Below, one piece after another: positions 8,029-50,215 of a DNA stretch of 64,000 nt. Origin of the DNA: Kaistia defluvii. Lineage in GTDB: Bacteria > Pseudomonadota > Alphaproteobacteria > Rhizobiales > Kaistiaceae. The stretch spans positions 372,001-436,000 of the forward strand of contig NZ_JAPKNI010000005.1 of NCBI RefSeq assembly GCF_026343955.1, read 5' to 3'. Positions within the stretch are counted from its first letter, which is position 1; each line of letters begins with the position of its first letter. A program made the position numbers and the translations under genes. The notes beneath the pieces are model-generated. The model saw only the letters and a program-made list of their open reading frames with translations. It ran no database searches and was not told the origin of the DNA.

Positions 8029-9834
<1,806 letters not shown>

Positions 9835-10824
9835 ATGCTGCTCCAACACCTTCACCAGACGACCCGGAAGGTCCTTCGCGTGGCCGGTGAAGCCATCAGG
9901 CGGCCGCGTCCCTTCGCAATACGACTGCTGCGGCGTTCTCCGTATCTGGGACCCATATTGGTTCGATCCTGGCATCGGCGACGCTTCGAGCAGCGGATGC
10001 AACGTCCGCTTCGCCTGCGTCCTCCCATCGATCTCAACGAGTACCTCGTCCATCGCATTCTCTACGACCGCGATCCGCGCCTGAAGATCGTGTGCGACAA
10101 GATCGCGGTTCGAGACATCATCCGGGAGCGGCTTGGCGATGCGTTCGTCGTGCCGCTTCTCGGAGTGTGGAGCGATCCGCGCCACATCCCTTGGCACACG
10201 CTGCCGGATCGATTCGTACTGAAGCCCAATCACAGCTCCGGCCCCGTTGCCCTGATCCGCGAGGCGAGCCAGCTCGACACGCAGGCCCTCACCGCCAAGG
10301 CGACAGAGTGGCTGCGCCATGACTTTTTCGATTCAAGCCTCGAATGGGGGTATCGCGGCCTGCCGCGCCGCATTACGGCTGAACCGCTTCTGCTCGGTCC
10401 CAACGGGGCCGAGGTGATCGAAGCCGTGGCGCTGACGTTCGGAGGAAAGGTCGCGGCGATTCGTGTCTTCCTCGGCGGCAAGGACAATCCCGATCGTTGC
10501 GACAACTGGTTTGATCGAAACAGCGTCCGCTTGCCGTTCTATTCGCTCAAATACAGGCTGGGCGACTATGTGCTGGATCCGGCGATGACCGAGCGCATCA
10601 TCGCCGCCGCTGAAGCGGTTTCGGCGGGCTTCAGCCATCTTCGGGTGGATTTCTACCTCACGGACGAGGGTCTCAGGATCGGAGAACTGACGCCCTATTG
10701 CGGGGCAGGTCTCATCCCCTGGAACCGTCGCGGCTGCGACAGAGTGTTCGGGCAGCTTTGGGCCGACCCGTCCCGTATCGACGAGATCGACGATCTCGGC
10801 GCCCTCATCGAGGCGTCGGACTGA
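9835..10824 (+). CDS. TupA-like ATP-grasp protein, copy 1
   Basis: 329 residues. The start was chosen by alignment to the next paralogue, so that both have about 49 residues before the shared RSWH-RRF segment; the ribosome site is weak. Shared family motifs are KIVCDKIAVRDIIRERLGDAFVVPLLGVW, the phosphate-binding Lys strand LPDRFVLKPNHSSG, and a late metal-binding segment HLRVDFYLTDEGLRIGELTPYCGAG. TupA-like ATP-grasp proteins are predicted ligases in teichuronopeptide or cell-surface polysaccharide assembly. The substrate is unknown and no polysaccharide cluster surrounds it. Confidence 0.8.
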   Translation: MLLQHLHQTTRKVLRVAGEAIRRPRPFAIRLLRRSPYLGPILVRSWHRRRFEQRMQRPLRLRPPIDLNEYLVHRILYDRDPRLKIVCDKIAVRDIIRERLGDAFVVPLLGVWSDPRHIPWHTLPDRFVLKPNHSSGPVALIREASQLDTQALTAKATEWLRHDFFDSSLEWGYRGLPRRITAEPLLLGPNGAEVIEAVALTFGGKVAAIRVFLGGKDNPDRCDNWFDRNSVRLPFYSLKYRLGDYVLDPAMTERIIAAAEAVSAGFSHLRVDFYLTDEGLRIGELTPYCGAGLIPWNRRGCDRVFGQLWADPSRIDEIDDLGALIEASD

Positions 10825-19695: not shown

Positions 19696-20135
19696 TCAGT
19701 CTTCGTGATGGCCGTTGACGAAGGAGAGCGTGGCGAAGTGGTTGGCCGTGTCGGCCTTGCTGGCATCGGTGAACGGGACCTGGTGCAAGACCGCGATGAC
19801 GTTCAGCCCTTCATTGCGGATCAGGACCTCGCCGATGCCGTCGGCATCCGTCGTGCCGAGCGTGGACTCGGCCGCGTTGACATAGTCCGGCGTGATGGCA
19901 ACGCCCGCGACCGGCTTGCCGTCATAGAGCACCCGCACCTTGAACACCTCGCCGGCGGCAAGCTCGGTCGGGTTGACCAGCGGCACGATCTGCAACGGCT
20001 GCGCCGGCAGCGCGGGCGCGGCGTCGCCATGCAGATGGCGGATGGTGACATTGTGCTTCCAGTTGTCACCCGCCTCGGTCGCGCCGGGCACTTCGTTCTT
20101 CGGCTTGGCGACCCATTTTCCGTCCGCGCCCCTGG
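19696..20135 (-). pseudogene. DUF4198-like protein, C-terminal fragment
   Basis: About 145 codons remain, reading DGKWVAKPKNEVPGA, then NWKHNVTIRHL, PLQIVPLVNP and FKVRVLYDGKPVAGVAI, and ending [14 protein letters not shown]. This is the C-terminal half of a DUF4198 periplasmic protein, a group often tied to metal transport. The N-terminal half and signal peptide are absent. Upstream the sequence passes near 20131-20146 into a NusG-like gene in another frame, so this is a truncated remnant. Its position beside a metal GTPase suggests the two once formed a metal-homeostasis unit. Confidence 0.75.
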
Positions 20136-20564
20136 AACCATCTCCGCGAACGGGCCCACCAGCACACGCACGGTACTGCCTTCGGTCAGGATCGGCTGTT
20201 CGTTGAGCAGGCCCGACGCATCCGCCAGGCGTTGCATGCCCTCGACCAGCCCGACCGGAAATGCCATCGGACGGTCTCCCTGCATGATCAGCGAGCGGAC
20301 CCCAACGGTCGCATTGATCGGGCGCCAGGCCTCGGTTGCGAGGTCGAGGGAGACAAAGACGTAGCCGGGGAAAAAGGCCACCGACTTCTCGACGGTCTTG
20401 CGCGCATGCCGGACCATCCGGCGCTGCCGGGGGAGCCAGGAGACGAAACCCTGCCGTCCGATATTCAGCTGCGCGACATCTTCCCTGCCGGGCTGGGAGG
20501 CCGCGACGTACCAGCGTCGCGTGGCCTGCGACGGTCGAGGGTCTCCCCTCGTCGCTTCGCTCAA
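20136..20564 (-). pseudogene. NusG/RfaH-like antiterminator, truncated in its KOW domain
   Basis: It begins at TTG 20564 (AAGG upstream) and reads RRWYVAASQPGREDVAQLNI, FVSWLPRQRRMVRHARK, FFPGYVFVSLDL and VGVRSLIMQGDRPMAFP, which is a full NusG N-terminal domain. The KOW motif starts (EGSTVRVLVGPFAEM) and is then cut off. Beyond about 20135 the frame continues into nonsense over the DUF4198 fragment. Specialised NusG paralogues usually control long surface-polysaccharide operons; none is present here. The N-terminal domain might still be made. Confidence 0.75.
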
Positions 20565-21180
20565 GGGGCCTTACCGTGGCATGGGTCGTTCAACAAGAAC
20601 ACTCCAGGCAAAACGCCAAACCTAACGTCGCACGACCGCACGACGCCTACACGTTCATCAACAGGCTAGGGATCGTTGCATAATACGGCGGCAATCGGTG
20701 GCTGCCAAGTCGGCAAGGCCTGTTTTCCTCACCACAACGCCGCTTCCCACGGTCTCGTCCGGCACGGATCTGCGGGAAGGCGGGCCGCGCTTCGCACGAT
20801 CGGATATCACCCCGTGCCGCAAGGCGCCGTCTGCCGCGTCTCCGGCTTGAACGCGGCACGGCGGCGGCGTCTGGCCATCTCCGTGAATGGCATCAGGGAC
20901 CACGGGCCCCGCCCGCGCATCGGAAGGCATGCCCGCCGAGGCAGGCCGTCGCCCGCTTGATCATCGCCGCCTCGCCCGGCATCGCGGAACCGTTGCCGGA
21001 TCGCGCGCAACGGTGTGCCGTTCGCCCGCTGGTACAGCCTGATTTCGGATGTCCGACTGCGTCTTCTTCGACGCCCCCAACGTCCTGGCGTTCCTCGACG
21101 CGGTCGGAACCGATCCCGAAGGGATCATGGCACCGGAGTGGGCCCGCCGGCAGCTTGTGTCGACGGGCCGCAGAGTCCGC
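20565..21180. other. Gene-poor, apparently decayed segment
   Basis: Only short overlapping frames exist, and none has a recognisable family or convincing start. A plus-strand frame at 21049 (beginning MSDCVFFDAPNVLAFLDAVG) has plausible composition for about 45 residues and could be a gene remnant. The segment lies between the truncated NusG-like gene and the RiPP-like mini-gene, both on the minus strand. Confidence 0.45.
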
Positions 21181-21273
21181 TTAGCAGGGCTGGTTGGACG
21201 TGCAGACAACCGCCGCAATGCGCTGCAGCTGTGCACCCTTGGAAAGGACCGGACGCTCGTAGGTCTTCTTCAT
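21181..21273 (-). CDS. RiPP-like precursor peptide, 30 residues
   Basis: Starts MKKTYERPVLSKGAQLQ and ends CTSNQPC. GAGGGG lies about 8 nt upstream of the ATG at 21273, a strong ribosome site. The Y-x-x-P-x-L leader (Tyr5, Pro8, Leu10) matches the leader recognised by RiPP recognition elements in lasso-type systems. The tail has two Cys (24 and 30) but no Asp or Glu, so a classical lasso ring is unlikely; another class, a disulfide or an unprocessed relic is possible. No cyclase, protease or recognition protein is encoded within the window. Confidence 0.6.
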   Translation of the reverse strand: MKKTYERPVLSKGAQLQRIAAVVCTSNQPC

Positions 21274-21604
21274 AATGTTGCCCCTCAGGCGTTGTTGACG
21301 CTGCGTTCTCTGCCACCATGGCAGGCTCCTGTCGATTGCAAGCCGGCAACACCGCACACGAAATTCCGGTGCACTGGCGACAGGCTCGCGCCTCCCGGCC
21401 ACAACCGGCGTCCACGCCGCCCCGTCAAGGCGTGCAGGCTCGATCGCCCGGGCCGTCGAGATCGCCACCGTCGCGCGCCTCAAGGCGTTCCTGGCGGGAC
21501 GCCTGCTCCCGCCCGACAAGGTGCGGCCTGATCGTGGAACCGATCCGCTCCAATGCCCCCGCCCCCCTGTCGCGCCGGCTCGGTGCCTATTCTCATGCAA
21601 CATG
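21274..21604. other. Gene-poor spacer upstream of RiPP-like gene
   Basis: No supported gene was seen. A plus-strand frame near 21422-21540 reads plausible protein (ARAVEIATVARLKAFLAG) but has no start, family or ribosome site, so it may be a remnant. The promoter of the mini-gene should lie within the first 150 bp on the minus strand; none was clear. Confidence 0.4.
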
Positions 21605-21633
21605 CTGACGTAGGGACATTCTGTCCATACTAT
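21605..21633 (+). promoter_or_regulatory. Sigma70-like promoter of araC-type gene
   Basis: CTGACG (-35) and TACTAT (-10) are separated by 17 bp, 52 bp before the ATG at 21685. The spacer contains a small inverted repeat, GGACA-TTC-TGTCC. Confidence 0.5.
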
Positions 21634-21684
21634 GCTCAAGGCGAGGCGGAGAGCGCCTGCGGCATTCCTGGAGCCGGTTGATCG

Positions 21685-22713
21685 ATGTGGGATCGAAACT
21701 CTGTCAGCCTGTCACTGATCCACATGCTCCCCATGGTGGCTGGGCACAGGGGAGTGTCGCTCGATAGCATTCTGGCAAGGGCCGGTTTGGCCCGAGATGC
21801 GCTTTCACAAACAGGCCTTGTCGCGGCAAGGAGCCAGGTCTGCTCGCTCTTGAACGAACTGTCGCGCCGGTCCGGCGAGGCGACGATCGGGTTCGACTTG
21901 GCGGCAGCCGCCGACCCGACCAAGCTGGGGCTGACCGGACGAGCGCTTTTCGGAGGGCGGACATTGCGGGAATGCCTGGTTCTGCACGCCCGCCACATGC
22001 CGACCCTGCAGGGTGGCGTAAGCATGGGGCTCGACGTTAGGGATGGCCGGGCTCACTGGCGCCACGCGATGGCCAATAGCGATGCCGCGCATGCCGGCGT
22101 GCTGAACGAGGGCATCGCCGCCTTCGTGCTGGCTGCGCTGCGCGCGATTGCAGGCGCGGATGGCGTCGACGCACAAATCACGCTTCCGCATCGGCCGAGG
22201 GCGTCGAGCCGATTGTATGAGGAAAAACTCGGGGCCGGCGTCTCCTTCGGCAACGGCGTCGGCATTTCGGTGAGCTTCGATGCGGCCTGGCTCGACCGCC
22301 CCAATCCTCATCTAGGAGGGTCGCGGCTGGCCGAGGAGCCCGGCGAGGCCATCGTCGACAGCCAGGATTGGAACCAGGACGACACGCTGACGATGGCCCT
22401 GGAACGGATCTTTTCCAGCGCCGCCCTGGCGGGAACGCTCTCGCTGCTCGATGCGTCCCGCAGCCTCGGCATTGCCCCGCGCAGCCTTCAGCGACGGCTG
22501 CTCGCCTCCGGCACATCGTTTGAAGCCTTGGTCGATACATGGCGGCGCAGCCTTGCCCGCACTCAGCTAGCCGACCCGGCACTGCCTGTCGGCTCGATTT
22601 CCAGGTCCCTCGGCTATAGCGATCCCGCGCATTTCGTCCGCGCATTCCGACGTTGGGAGGGCATCACCCCGCTCGCCTATCGGCGAATCGTCGTGGCGCG
22701 AAATGGCAATTGA
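21685..22713 (+). CDS. AraC-family regulator (OruR/ArgR-like N-terminal domain)
   Basis: 342 residues. The N-terminal ~200 residues fit the Arabinose_bd-type domain of AraC regulators (GVSLDSILARAGL, FGGRTLRECLVLHARHMPTLQGG). The C-terminal tandem HTH includes SLLDASRSLGIAPRSLQRRLLASGTSFEALVDTWRR and ISRSLGYSDPAHFVRAFRRWEGITPLAYRR, the family signature. The effector is unknown. It lies 72 bp upstream of the sulfatase gene on the same strand, which is a plausible target. Confidence 0.9.
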   Translation: MWDRNSVSLSLIHMLPMVAGHRGVSLDSILARAGLARDALSQTGLVAARSQVCSLLNELSRRSGEATIGFDLAAAADPTKLGLTGRALFGGRTLRECLVLHARHMPTLQGGVSMGLDVRDGRAHWRHAMANSDAAHAGVLNEGIAAFVLAALRAIAGADGVDAQITLPHRPRASSRLYEEKLGAGVSFGNGVGISVSFDAAWLDRPNPHLGGSRLAEEPGEAIVDSQDWNQDDTLTMALERIFSSAALAGTLSLLDASRSLGIAPRSLQRRLLASGTSFEALVDTWRRSLARTQLADPALPVGSISRSLGYSDPAHFVRAFRRWEGITPLAYRRIVVARNGN

Positions 22714-22785
22714 GCGCGGCCAGACTTGTCTCTACGGCAATGGGTAACACTCTTTCGCAGCCTCTCGTTCCGAAGGGGAACGCCC

Positions 22786-24261
22786 ATGCCGAAGTCAGAA
22801 CGCGTGCAGCCCGCAAACGCCTCGTCACCCAGCCGCCGGGATGTGATGGCCGGCGGCGGCGCCTTCCTTGCCGCCATGGCGGGACTGTCGCTGCTCGCCG
22901 GGCAGGCCCGCGCGGCGGGGACCACGCGCCCTCACATCCTCTACATCATGGCCGACGACCTCGGTTTCGCGGATGTCGGCTTCCACGGCTCGGACATCCG
23001 AACGCCCCATCTCGACAATCTCGCTACCGGCGGGGCGAAACTGCATCAATTCTACACGCAGTGCATGTGCACCCCGACCCGCGCCGCTCTGATGACGGGG
23101 CGCTATCCGCTGCGCTATGGCCTGCAGACCGGCGTGATCCCCTCGGGGGGCAGCTACGGCCTCGCGACGGACGAGTTCCTGCTGCCGCAGGCGCTGCAAC
23201 AGGCGGGCTACGCCACCGCCCTTGTCGGTAAATGGCATCTTGGCCATGCGGATCAGAAATACTGGCCGCGACAGAGGGGCTTCGACACCTTCTACGGGCC
23301 GCTCGTGGGCGAGATCGATCACTTCAAGCACGAAGCGCATGGGGTGACCGATTGGTACCGCGACAACAAGCTGGTCGAGGAAGAGGGCTACGATACCGAG
23401 TTATTCGGCGCCGAGGCCGTTCGGATGATCGGAGGGCACGATCCCGACAAGCCGCTCTTCCTCTATCTGGCTTTCACCGCGCCGCACACGCCCTTCCAGG
23501 CGCCCAAGCGCTTTCTCGATATCTATGCCGACATCGAGGATCCGTCCCGCCGCACCTACGCCGCGATGATCACCGCGATGGACGAACAGATCGGCAAGGT
23601 CGTGGAGGCGCTCGAAACGCGTGGCATGCGGGAGAACACGCTGATCGTCTTCCATTCCGACAATGGCGGAACCCGCTCGAAAATGTTTGCCGGCGAGAGC
23701 GCCGTGTCGGGCGATCTTCCCGCCAGCAACGCACCGTATCGCGAAGGCAAGGGCACGCTGTACGAGGGCGGCACGCGCGTCGTGGGGCTGGCGAACTGGC
23801 CAGGCCAGATCCCGCCGGCCGAAGTCGACGCGGCCCTGCATGTCGTCGACATGCTGCCGACGCTCGCGAAACTGGCGGGAGCCGACCTGTCCGCTTCCAA
23901 GACGCTGGACGGGCAGGACATCTGGCCGACGCTTGCGTCCGGAAGCACGATCCGCACCGAGCTGGTCTACAATATCGAGCCGACGCAGGGCGCCGTTCGG
24001 CACGGGCAATGGAAGCTGCTCTGGCAGGCAGTGCTTCCGCCCAAGATCGAGCTGTTCGACCTCGATGCCGATCCCGGCGAAACCAGGGACGTGTCGCGGA
24101 ACCATCCCGAGAAAGTGGCGGAACTGCAGGCCCGGGTCGTTGAACTGGCTCAGGCCATGGCCCCGCCGCTGTTCTACGGCAGCGCGCTGAAGCTCACCCT
24201 CTCCTCGCCGCTCTCGACGCCCAACGCGGCGCTCTACGAGATGGGCCTGGAATCCGACTAG
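22786..24261 (+). CDS. Exported arylsulfatase-family sulfatase
   Basis: 491 residues; ATG at 22786 after AAGGGGA. A Tat-type signal (SRRDVM at 16-21, a hydrophobic stretch, cleavage near AQARA-AG) indicates folded export. The sulfatase signature CTPTRAALMTG has Cys95 for formylglycine conversion and Arg99. Metal ligands are in MADDLGFADVG (Asp57/58) and HSDNGG, and GKWHLGH carries the Lys-x-His. The overall form resembles arylsulfatase B/I/J types acting on sulfated sugars. The formylglycine-generating enzyme is not in this window. Confidence 0.92.
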   Translation: MPKSERVQPANASSPSRRDVMAGGGAFLAAMAGLSLLAGQARAAGTTRPHILYIMADDLGFADVGFHGSDIRTPHLDNLATGGAKLHQFYTQCMCTPTRAALMTGRYPLRYGLQTGVIPSGGSYGLATDEFLLPQALQQAGYATALVGKWHLGHADQKYWPRQRGFDTFYGPLVGEIDHFKHEAHGVTDWYRDNKLVEEEGYDTELFGAEAVRMIGGHDPDKPLFLYLAFTAPHTPFQAPKRFLDIYADIEDPSRRTYAAMITAMDEQIGKVVEALETRGMRENTLIVFHSDNGGTRSKMFAGESAVSGDLPASNAPYREGKGTLYEGGTRVVGLANWPGQIPPAEVDAALHVVDMLPTLAKLAGADLSASKTLDGQDIWPTLASGSTIRTELVYNIEPTQGAVRHGQWKLLWQAVLPPKIELFDLDADPGETRDVSRNHPEKVAELQARVVELAQAMAPPLFYGSALKLTLSSPLSTPNAALYEMGLESD

Positions 24262-48547: not shown

Positions 48548-50215
48548 TCAGGCCCTGTCGCGGAACTTGTTGGTGATCGGGTAGCGGCGGTCGCGGCCGA
48601 AGTTGCGGCGGCTGAGCTTGACGCCCGGCGCGGCCTGGCGGCGCTTGTACTCGGCGATCGCCAGGAGGTGCTCGATCCGCTGCACCGTCGCGGCCTCATG
48701 CCCCCGCGCGATCACGTCGCCAACGCGCATCTCGCCTTCGACGAGGCTCTCGAGAATATCGTCGAGAATGTCGTAGGGCGGCAGCGAGTCCTGGTCCTTC
48801 TGGTTCTCGCGCAACTCGGCAGTCGGCGGCTTGGTGATGATCCGCTCGGGGATCACCTCGCCCGACGGGCCGAGGCAGCCTTCCGGGACCACCGTGTTTC
48901 GGAAATGCGAGATCCGGAAGACCTGCGTCTTGTACAGGTCCTTGATCGGATTGAAGCCGCCATTCATGTCGCCATAGAGCGTGGCGTAGCCGACCGACAT
49001 CTCGGACTTGTTGCCTGTTGTCACGACCATTGCGCCGAACTTGTTGGAGATCGCCATGAGGATGGTGCCGCGCGCGCGCGATTGCAGGTTTTCCTCGGTG
49101 ATGTCGGCCGCCTTGCCGGCGAACATCGGCGCCAGAGCATGCATGAAGCCCTCGACGGGTTCGGCAATCGGCACGATGTCGTAGCGCACGCCGAGCTTCT
49201 CGGCGCAGGCCTTGGCATCGACGAGGCTGTCCTGCGAGGTGTATCGATAGGGCAGCATCACGCAGTGGACGTGATCGGCGCCCAGTGCATCGACGGCGAT
49301 CGCCGCAACCAGCGCCGAGTCGATACCGCCCGACAGCCCCAGCACGACGCCGGGGAAATTGTTCTTGCCGACATAATCGCGCAGGCCTAGCACGCAGGCG
49401 AGATAATCCGCCTCGTCACCCTCCTCGAGGCGCGCCTTCGGACCCTCTACGCAGCGCCAGGCGCCATCGACCAGGGCGAACTCGACGATTTCGATCGCAT
49501 CGCGGAAAGCGGGCAACTGGACGGCGAGCGAGCCGTCGGCGTTGAGAACGAAGGATGCGCCGTCAAAGACGAGCTCATCCTGGCCGCCTACCTGGTTGAG
49601 ATAGACCAGCGGCAGGCCCGATTCCGTGACGCGCGCGACCGCAACGTTGAAGCGCTGGTCCATGACGCGGCGGCGGAACGGCGAGCCGTTCGGCACGAGC
49701 AGGATCTCGCCGCCCGTCTCCGAGATGCACTCGACCGGATCGGGACCCCAGATGTCCTCGCAGATGGGAACGCCGATGCGCACGCCGCGCAGCACGATCG
49801 GTCCGGGATGCGGACCGGGCGTGAAGACGCGCTTCTCGTCGAACACGCCGTAATTCGGCAGATCGACCTTGAAGCGCACCGTCTCGATCCGGCCGTTGTC
49901 GCAGAGCGCATAGGCGTTGTAGAGCGCCTCGTCCTCGCGCCATGGCAGGCCGATCAGCACGGCCGGCCCCCCATCGGCGGTATCGGCGGCGATCGCCTCG
50001 CAGGCGGCGCGGCAGGCGTCCTGGAACGCCGGCTTCAGCACGAGATCTTCCGGCGGGTAGGCCGAAAGGAACAATTCGCTGAACATGACGACGTCGGCGC
50101 GGCCCGCCGCGGCGGTCGCGCGCGCGGCGCGCGCCTTTTCGAGATTGCCGGCGATGTCGCCGACAACCGGATTGATCTGGGCAAGGGCGATGCGGAGCGT
50201 GTCGGGGCGGGTCAT
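48548..50215 (-). CDS. nadE: Glutamine-dependent NAD+ synthetase
   Basis: 555 residues. It makes NAD+ from deamido-NAD+, ATP and glutamine. The N-terminal nitrilase-type glutaminase shows FSELFLSAYPPEDLV (Glu), a Lys in RFKVDLPNYGVFDEKR and Cys in VPICEDIW. The C-terminal synthetase has the PP-loop VLGLSGGIDSALVAAIAVDALG and GNKSEMSVGYATLYGDMNGGFNPIKDLYKTQV. Both halves are complete, so no separate amidotransferase is needed. Confidence 0.97.
   Translation of the reverse strand: MTRPDTLRIALAQINPVVGDIAGNLEKARAARATAAAGRADVVMFSELFLSAYPPEDLVLKPAFQDACRAACEAIAADTADGGPAVLIGLPWREDEALYNAYALCDNGRIETVRFKVDLPNYGVFDEKRVFTPGPHPGPIVLRGVRIGVPICEDIWGPDPVECISETGGEILLVPNGSPFRRRVMDQRFNVAVARVTESGLPLVYLNQVGGQDELVFDGASFVLNADGSLAVQLPAFRDAIEIVEFALVDGAWRCVEGPKARLEEGDEADYLACVLGLRDYVGKNNFPGVVLGLSGGIDSALVAAIAVDALGADHVHCVMLPYRYTSQDSLVDAKACAEKLGVRYDIVPIAEPVEGFMHALAPMFAGKAADITEENLQSRARGTILMAISNKFGAMVVTTGNKSEMSVGYATLYGDMNGGFNPIKDLYKTQVFRISHFRNTVVPEGCLGPSGEVIPERIITKPPTAELRENQKDQDSLPPYDILDDILESLVEGEMRVGDVIARGHEAATVQRIEHLLAIAEYKRRQAAPGVKLSRRNFGRDRRYPITNKFRDRA

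Follow-up and report, generated by a model that had tools for sequence, protein, structure and literature searches.

The window, a 64,000-nt stretch of contig NZ_JAPKNI010000005.1 of Kaistia defluvii, contains a very short gene whose product divides into a predicted leader and a predicted core (Table 1). The 30-codon reading frame described in the initial annotation was found at the position given there, together with its very good ribosome-binding site, its Y-x-x-P-x-L motif, and its two-Cys tail; the strand, absent from that annotation, is minus. Comparison of the peptide with Pfam and NCBIfam returned sub-threshold, lasso-related hints (DUF5972, E 0.0024; lasso_cyano, E 0.016). In single-sequence searches of the congeners, the closest relative was 90% identical (genome G004; E 5e-14), and a relative in G008 was 66% identical (E 1e-6). 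The gene's own genome (G000; 4.9 Mb, 21 contigs) yielded nine places, namely the gene itself and eight weaker ones at E 0.001-0.8. Changes between the window gene and its G004 copy are synonymous in 8 cases and non-synonymous in 3 (dN/dS 0.09). Homologs and coding constraint, both of which the initial annotation had proposed to check, are therefore present, and these sequence comparisons confirm that the tiny gene is real, above chance.

Table 1. Coordinates of the features of the window and of the distant enzyme cassette (locus L155).
Feature	Position	Strand	Remarks
Precursor gene	21273..21181	minus	30 codons + stop; MKKTYERPVLSKGAQLQRIAAVVCTSNQPC; from translation
Ribosome-binding site GAGGGG	21281..21286	minus	7 nt upstream of ATG; from sequence
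Predicted leader	21211..21273	minus	21 aa; YxxPxL; ends I-A-A; from alignment and counts
Predicted core VVCTSNQPC	21184..21210	minus	Cys3, Ser5, Cys9; no Asp/Glu
Upstream element TGTTGC-N10-TCGAC	21331..21351	minus	common to some dispersed precursor genes; promoter-like
GC-rich hairpin	21141..21169	minus	past stop codon, within conserved block; -26.2 kcal/mol, z -1.6; 11/200 shuffles as good
Block conserved with G004:C7	21141..21364	minus	86%, blastn; flanks unrelated
Probably mosaic segment around gene	20138..21684		similarity breaks at both ends
NTP_transf_5 gene (N)	L155 6901-7959	minus
Cassette-adjacent precursor	L155 8195..8097	minus	family member
PqqD/RRE gene (B1)	L155 8334-8627		overlaps B2 head to tail
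B2 leader peptidase gene	L155 8624-9055		PF13471; overlaps B1 and kinase head to tail
HPr-kinase-like gene (K)	L155 about 9052-10062		overlaps B2 head to tail

Similarity to the G004 copy is limited to the gene, with 91 nt on its upstream side and 40 nt on its downstream side, and flanking similarity is broken, which gives the gene the look of a dispersed unit set in mosaic DNA. The left neighborhood was found in G001, G006, G008, and G013, with similarity ending at 20137. To the right, G004 similarity begins at 21685, and the AraC-sulfatase neighborhood (21685-22798) occurs elsewhere in G004 without the window gene. One piece of the segment (20139-20519) matches G013 (73%) about 27 kb from the place of the left block in that genome. 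The scarred context asserted in the initial annotation is thus supported, rather than proved, by the breaks at 20137 and 21685 and by the displaced G013 piece; plain divergence may also account for the segment. A strict precursor pattern was found near relatives of the AraC gene at 0 of 80 named loci, compared with 15 of 15 control loci, and these relatives therefore lack the peptide nearby. Two window genes have their best named relatives mostly in Hyphomicrobiales (e.g., Ancylobacter, Microvirga, Phyllobacterium). An RfaH/NusG-like ORF (19821-20564, minus strand) has a family match that stops at residue 142 of 247, and may therefore be broken or fused. We do not favor the view that the window gene is a leader ORF regulating a gene downstream of it; the next gene recognized on that strand, the NusG-like ORF (20564..19821), starts about 600 nt past the stop codon.

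The upstream element TGTTGC-N10-TCGAC lies 54-80 nt before the start codon in 7 of 44 congener genes (L001, L009, L010, L011, L015, L016, L021; mononucleotide shuffles, mean 0.005, maximum 1), and 8 of 44 have the sequence GTCAACA no more than 40 nt from the start. Together these may possibly represent a common promoter and 5' UTR. An RBS-like sequence precedes 36 of the 46 precursor genes examined. Scans of the window gene for a sigma-70 promoter and an intrinsic terminator returned nothing, nor was a terminator consensus found; the GC-rich hairpin past the stop codon could, on weak grounds, be a terminator without a U-run.

The initial annotation termed the gene an orphan. This holds for its distance from biosynthetic enzymes, but the gene is not a lone one, being one member of a dispersed multigene family. 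A profile built from 40 aligned members (up to 150 candidates scored per genome; strong matches at E≤1e-7) located at least 52 strong places in 6 of 14 congeners, the own genome counted; because the profile was made from the same peptides, these genus-level scores are inflated, and independent support comes from the single-peptide search, which by itself has matches in 6 of the 14. Among the candidates scored, strong places number 9 in G000 (the window gene included), 11 in G001, 15 in G004, 6 in G008, 6 in G010, and 5 in G013, and the other eight congeners have none at this threshold. Across the order, at least 15 of 397 genomes carry precursors at E≤0.001 (up to 20 candidates scored per genome). 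Precursors are 28-37 aa long and are encoded by 5-15 genes per genome, mostly distant from the enzymes described below. None of the 52 strong members has an internal stop codon.

Five of the G000 paralogs form an array on the contig of the window gene, 150 kb from it. This tandem array (L114 9345-10407; G000:C17:240844-241906) lies between FGGY pentulose kinase and adenine deaminase genes, and, as judged by inspection of the sequences, the neighbors are similar around arrays in several congeners (L115, L116, L118) and around a single copy (L124). At L267 (G004:C3:467400-468100), two more precursors are adjacent, one with the core IQPCVSGTDCL, in which a Ser stands between two Cys, and with Tyr for Leu in YxxPxL.

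The family consensus is M(x)KKTYExPxLxKxxxLxxIAA, followed by a tail of 7-13 residues. Positions were counted in 51 distinct peptides from the 52 strong genes; two G019 peptides (another genus) and three weaker places (G008 C352, G008 C555, and G000 C1:823092) were left out, these last three also having a Ser in the core. In one of the 51, Tyr replaces the Leu of YxxPxL. We place the cut by spacing, taking the core to start 17 residues past the Tyr, which would put cleavage after Ala21 in the window peptide, a point predicted by analogy with lasso leaders. The predicted -1 residue is Ala in all 51, and the predicted -2 residue is Ala in 42, Val in 6, and Thr in 3. Lasso leaders have Thr at -2 and rarely Ile or Val, as described in the sections of PMC10368454 drawn on here; that -2 is not always the lasso-type Thr counts against the pathway proposed below.

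All 51 cores have a Ser at predicted position 3-6, compared with a mean of 20.4 and a maximum of 32 in within-core shuffles of 43 of the peptides (10,000 rounds), counts that are not independent since the family peptides are related. The Ser is not at the same position in every core, and more than one Ser occurs in several of them. Cys residues are absent from 31 cores and number two in the remaining 20, with no single-Cys core (chance about 2e-9 in the 43-peptide set, assuming independent residues). In all 20 two-Cys cores, a Ser lies between both Cys. An Asp or Glu at core position 7-9, which a lasso ring requires, occurs in 10 of the 51, and the window peptide has neither there; the earlier view that its tail lacks these residues and does not fit a classical lasso core is borne out.

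The initial annotation noted that no cyclase, protease, or recognition element lies in the window, and suggested PqqD-like and transglutaminase-like proteins as the ones to seek in the genome. Both types were found, all outside the window: the sole B2 of the genome, four PqqD matches, and the kinase are on other contigs. The only in-window match to the Asn_synthase model is weak (49181-49336; E 4e-4) and falls in an NAD+ synthase gene. The candidate enzymes form a cassette on contig C16 (L155), in which B1, B2, and the kinase gene overlap in series, with a family precursor and an NTP_transf_5 gene alongside (Table 1). The G000 B2 scores above the curated lasso_biosyn_B2 cut-off (NF033537), and the 16 B2 sequences listed have a Cys motif (RRC[LF]R or RPCLR) and a His motif (AHCWV). 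For the RRE profile, the best PDB matches were TfuB1 and TbiB1. The kinase matches no Pfam family and HprK_rel_A below cut-off only, and when its family profile was compared with the PDB, the top four hits were all HPr kinases (E 0.0012-0.011). All 11 kinase sequences compared have H135, K158, D175, and D176; these residues match the His-Lys-Asp-Asp motif of lasso kinases, as given in the parts of PMC9266682 consulted here. A motif test called no ORF with both ABC motifs beside the cassette in six congener loci of 11-20 kb, and no kinase relatives were found on plasmids. The cassette is near glycogen phosphorylase and GlgB genes in four congeners (named in L155; by likeness in L156, L158, and L160), and is not near such genes in G001 and G010.

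The distribution of B2 and of the kinase follows that of the precursors. B2 (PF13471) and the kinase at 64-100% identity each occur in exactly the 6 of 14 congeners that bear precursors; in those six a PqqD gene is beside B2, and PqqD alone is found in 10 of 14. Weaker kinase matches occur in two precursor-negative genomes, G005 and G011, and G001, G008, and G013 have such matches as second copies. At the level of the bacterial family, precursors at E≤0.001 are present, among candidates scored, in 8 of 28 genomes, all 8 with B2; one of the other 20 (G018; fragmented, 8% contamination) has B2 over the cut-off, and PF13471 is below cut-off in G021, G024, and G025. Fisher tests give 3e-4 (genus) and 3e-6 (family), both ignoring phylogeny, and the within-genus co-occurrence may be a single inherited event. 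In eight genomes of four other families, all of them precursor-positive and the weak match G384 left out, B2 was found in 8 of 8, and B1, B2, K, and N by tblastn likewise in 8 of 8. Together, the two sets of eight genomes provide 16 loci in 16 genomes with all four genes; N is 2.7 kb away in G069, and its match is partial in G019. In G011 and G005, another lasso-type PqqD gene lies near a distant HprK-like kinase (L203 8762, plus strand; L204 8727-9197, plus strand), and in L203 an ORF, YEAPSVERFDDMQELLLADPIHDV, follows; this is possibly a second, different kinase-RRE system.

Taken as a whole, these sequence data make it probable that the family members are RiPP precursors of a linear, Ser-phosphorylated product, served in trans by one distant cassette without a cyclase. 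The YxxPxL leader would be bound by the discrete RRE (B1) from the other contig, and the core Ser (Ser5 of VVCTSNQPC) would be phosphorylated by the HPr-kinase-like enzyme while the leader is held. Further decoration of this Ser with a sugar or nucleotide might follow, possibly via the NTP_transf_5 protein, and B2, a putative cysteine peptidase, would remove the leader after the conserved Ala. With no cyclase acting, the product would be short and linear; in some two fifths of its members, the family would have the modified Ser inside a small loop, which could be closed by a disulfide between the two Cys. A single enzyme locus would in this manner serve the 5-15 precursor genes of each genome. 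This course of events is drawn by analogy with BsfA/K, paeninodin, pseudomycoidin, and LPP (see below); any export and biological role of the peptides are likewise presumed. According to the portions of the sources used here, BsfK phosphorylates Ser3 with the assistance of an RRE (PMC10368454), LppK adds several phosphates at Ser3 and yields a linear product (PMC13381572), PadeK phosphorylates the C-terminal core Ser, and in pseudomycoidin the action of a kinase is followed by the addition of a hexose through PsmN (PMC9266682).

An unlikely alternative is that the cassette serves its adjacent precursor only, and that the dispersed genes give small peptides that stay unmodified, either linear or closed by a disulfide, and have kept an ancestral leader; such peptides could be signals, bacteriocin-like, or metal-binding. 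The leader interior does differ between the two kinds of gene (VAMIVA in the cassette-adjacent precursor, LQRIAA in the window peptide), and the cassette might for this reason not act on the dispersed precursors; Cys that are either paired or absent would suit a disulfide-closed peptide. Against this, the leader motif and the core Ser are equally conserved in dispersed and adjacent members, dispersed members within the genus occur only where the cassette does, and three members have the canonical lasso Thr at -2.

That these are true lasso peptides, with a cyclase missed by the Pfam model, is very improbable. The leader and the B1 and B2 proteins are of lasso type, as is the acidic residue at position 7-9 of 10 cores, but 41 of 51 cores, that of the window included, have no such residue, and cores of only 7-13 residues are short for a threaded ring. 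A full-length Asn synthetase (PF00733, the lasso cyclase family) was not found in five of the six precursor-bearing congeners, G000 included, where the model matched short pieces only (E≥2.7e-6); among these, the fragmented assembly of G008 (720 contigs; completeness 92%) makes absences there weak. G001 has one full-length Asn synthetase. The same search is able to reveal lasso cyclases: in another genus (g69), the positive control, all five genomes have a full-length PF00733 match within about 1 kb of a first B2, and this canonical lasso B2 and cyclase are 11-29 kb from the second B2, which belongs to the cyclase-less cassette (G248:C1, G129:C67, G229:C33, G159:C1, G094:C45). The system thus has the lasso-type YxxPxL leader with discrete RRE and the B2 transglutaminase-like leader peptidase, whereas no full-length Asn-synthetase-like cyclase C was found in G000 and four of the five other precursor-bearing congeners and the acidic residue is missing in the window peptide; with neither found, membership of the lasso peptides proper was rejected. 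Hardly any credence can be given to the idea that the genes are degenerate relics, duplicated lasso-cluster leftovers in mosaic DNA that have lost expression: the window copy is in a probably rearranged, gene-poor segment and no sigma-70-like promoter was found for it, but its dN/dS is low, its upstream block with the RBS is conserved, the strong members have intact reading frames, and 7 of 44 copies have the upstream element in common.

In g69, genes for phosphoenolpyruvate phosphotransferase and DhaM lie near the cassette (L248 12089-14521; similar in L249-L252). Between these two genes is a small ORF that we take to be HPr-like, an intriguing neighbor for an HPr-kinase-like enzyme.

The initial annotation supposed processing by enzymes elsewhere or an undescribed class. 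Candidate enzymes do lie elsewhere in the genome, but the type is not wholly undescribed, for a 2026 paper on the lpp cluster of Paenibacillus alginolyticus describes a similar type in Bacillota, the linear polyphosphorylated peptides (LPPs; PMC13381572). As far as the parts of that paper considered here describe them, LPPs share with the present system a discrete RRE, a YxxP leader, an HprK-like kinase with a core Ser as its target, an NTP transferase, the lack of a macrolactam cyclase, and a linear product, the product and the Ser modification being predicted in our case. LPP clusters often have a separate lasso cluster close by, which is also the arrangement in g69 (11-29 kb). By the same account, the leader peptidase of LPPs is SpI-like (LppS), in the place of which the present cassette carries B2, an MsbA-like transporter is among their core genes, and their clusters encode 1-3 precursors of 35-200 aa with the motif YxxPxVLxHQxIxFETxxS, as opposed to 28-37 aa and 5-15 per genome. 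The precursors here, unlike those of LPPs, are mostly far from the enzymes and may have paired Cys around the Ser. The authors describe LPPs as Bacillota-restricted; given this, the B2 of the cassette in place of an SpI-like peptidase, and the other leader motif and core lengths, we do not file the present system as LPP.

Kinase-bearing lasso peptides (paeninodin, pseudomycoidin, Sphingobium SyanA/K, and Bradymonas Bsf; PMC9266682, PMC10368454) likewise share, in the accounts used here, B1, B2, an HprK-like kinase with His-Lys-Asp-Asp, and Ser phosphorylation (predicted for our family), and some of their clusters also have an NTP_transf protein; unlike the present system, they have cyclase C and a precursor inside the cluster. 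Our literature search, in part narrow, found no description, outside Bacillota, of a comparable enzyme set lacking a cyclase, and queries on trans-acting orphan precursors and on Rhizobiales/Hyphomicrobiales variants returned no further relevant paper. In the main text of PMC13381572, the words Alphaproteobacteria, Pseudomonadota, Proteobacteria, orphan, standalone, and scattered do not occur. We tentatively suggest, at somewhat less than even odds, a separate RiPP class, in which one distant B1-B2-kinase-nucleotidyltransferase locus would act on genome-wide mini-genes, partly with a shared upstream element, to give short peptides each with a phospho- or phosphoglyco-Ser, often in a Cys-closed loop.

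These observations place a cyclase-less, kinase-centered relative of lasso biosynthesis in the alphaproteobacteria, with a design of one enzyme set and many precursors. Prochlorosin-type systems are similar in that one enzyme set serves many diverse, genome-scattered precursors, and different in their lanthionine chemistry and their unrelated leader and enzymes. Cluster-based mining would miss such a design, because most of the precursor genes are far from any biosynthetic gene. The set of congeners, six with and eight without the system, together with the invariant core Ser, makes its function directly testable.
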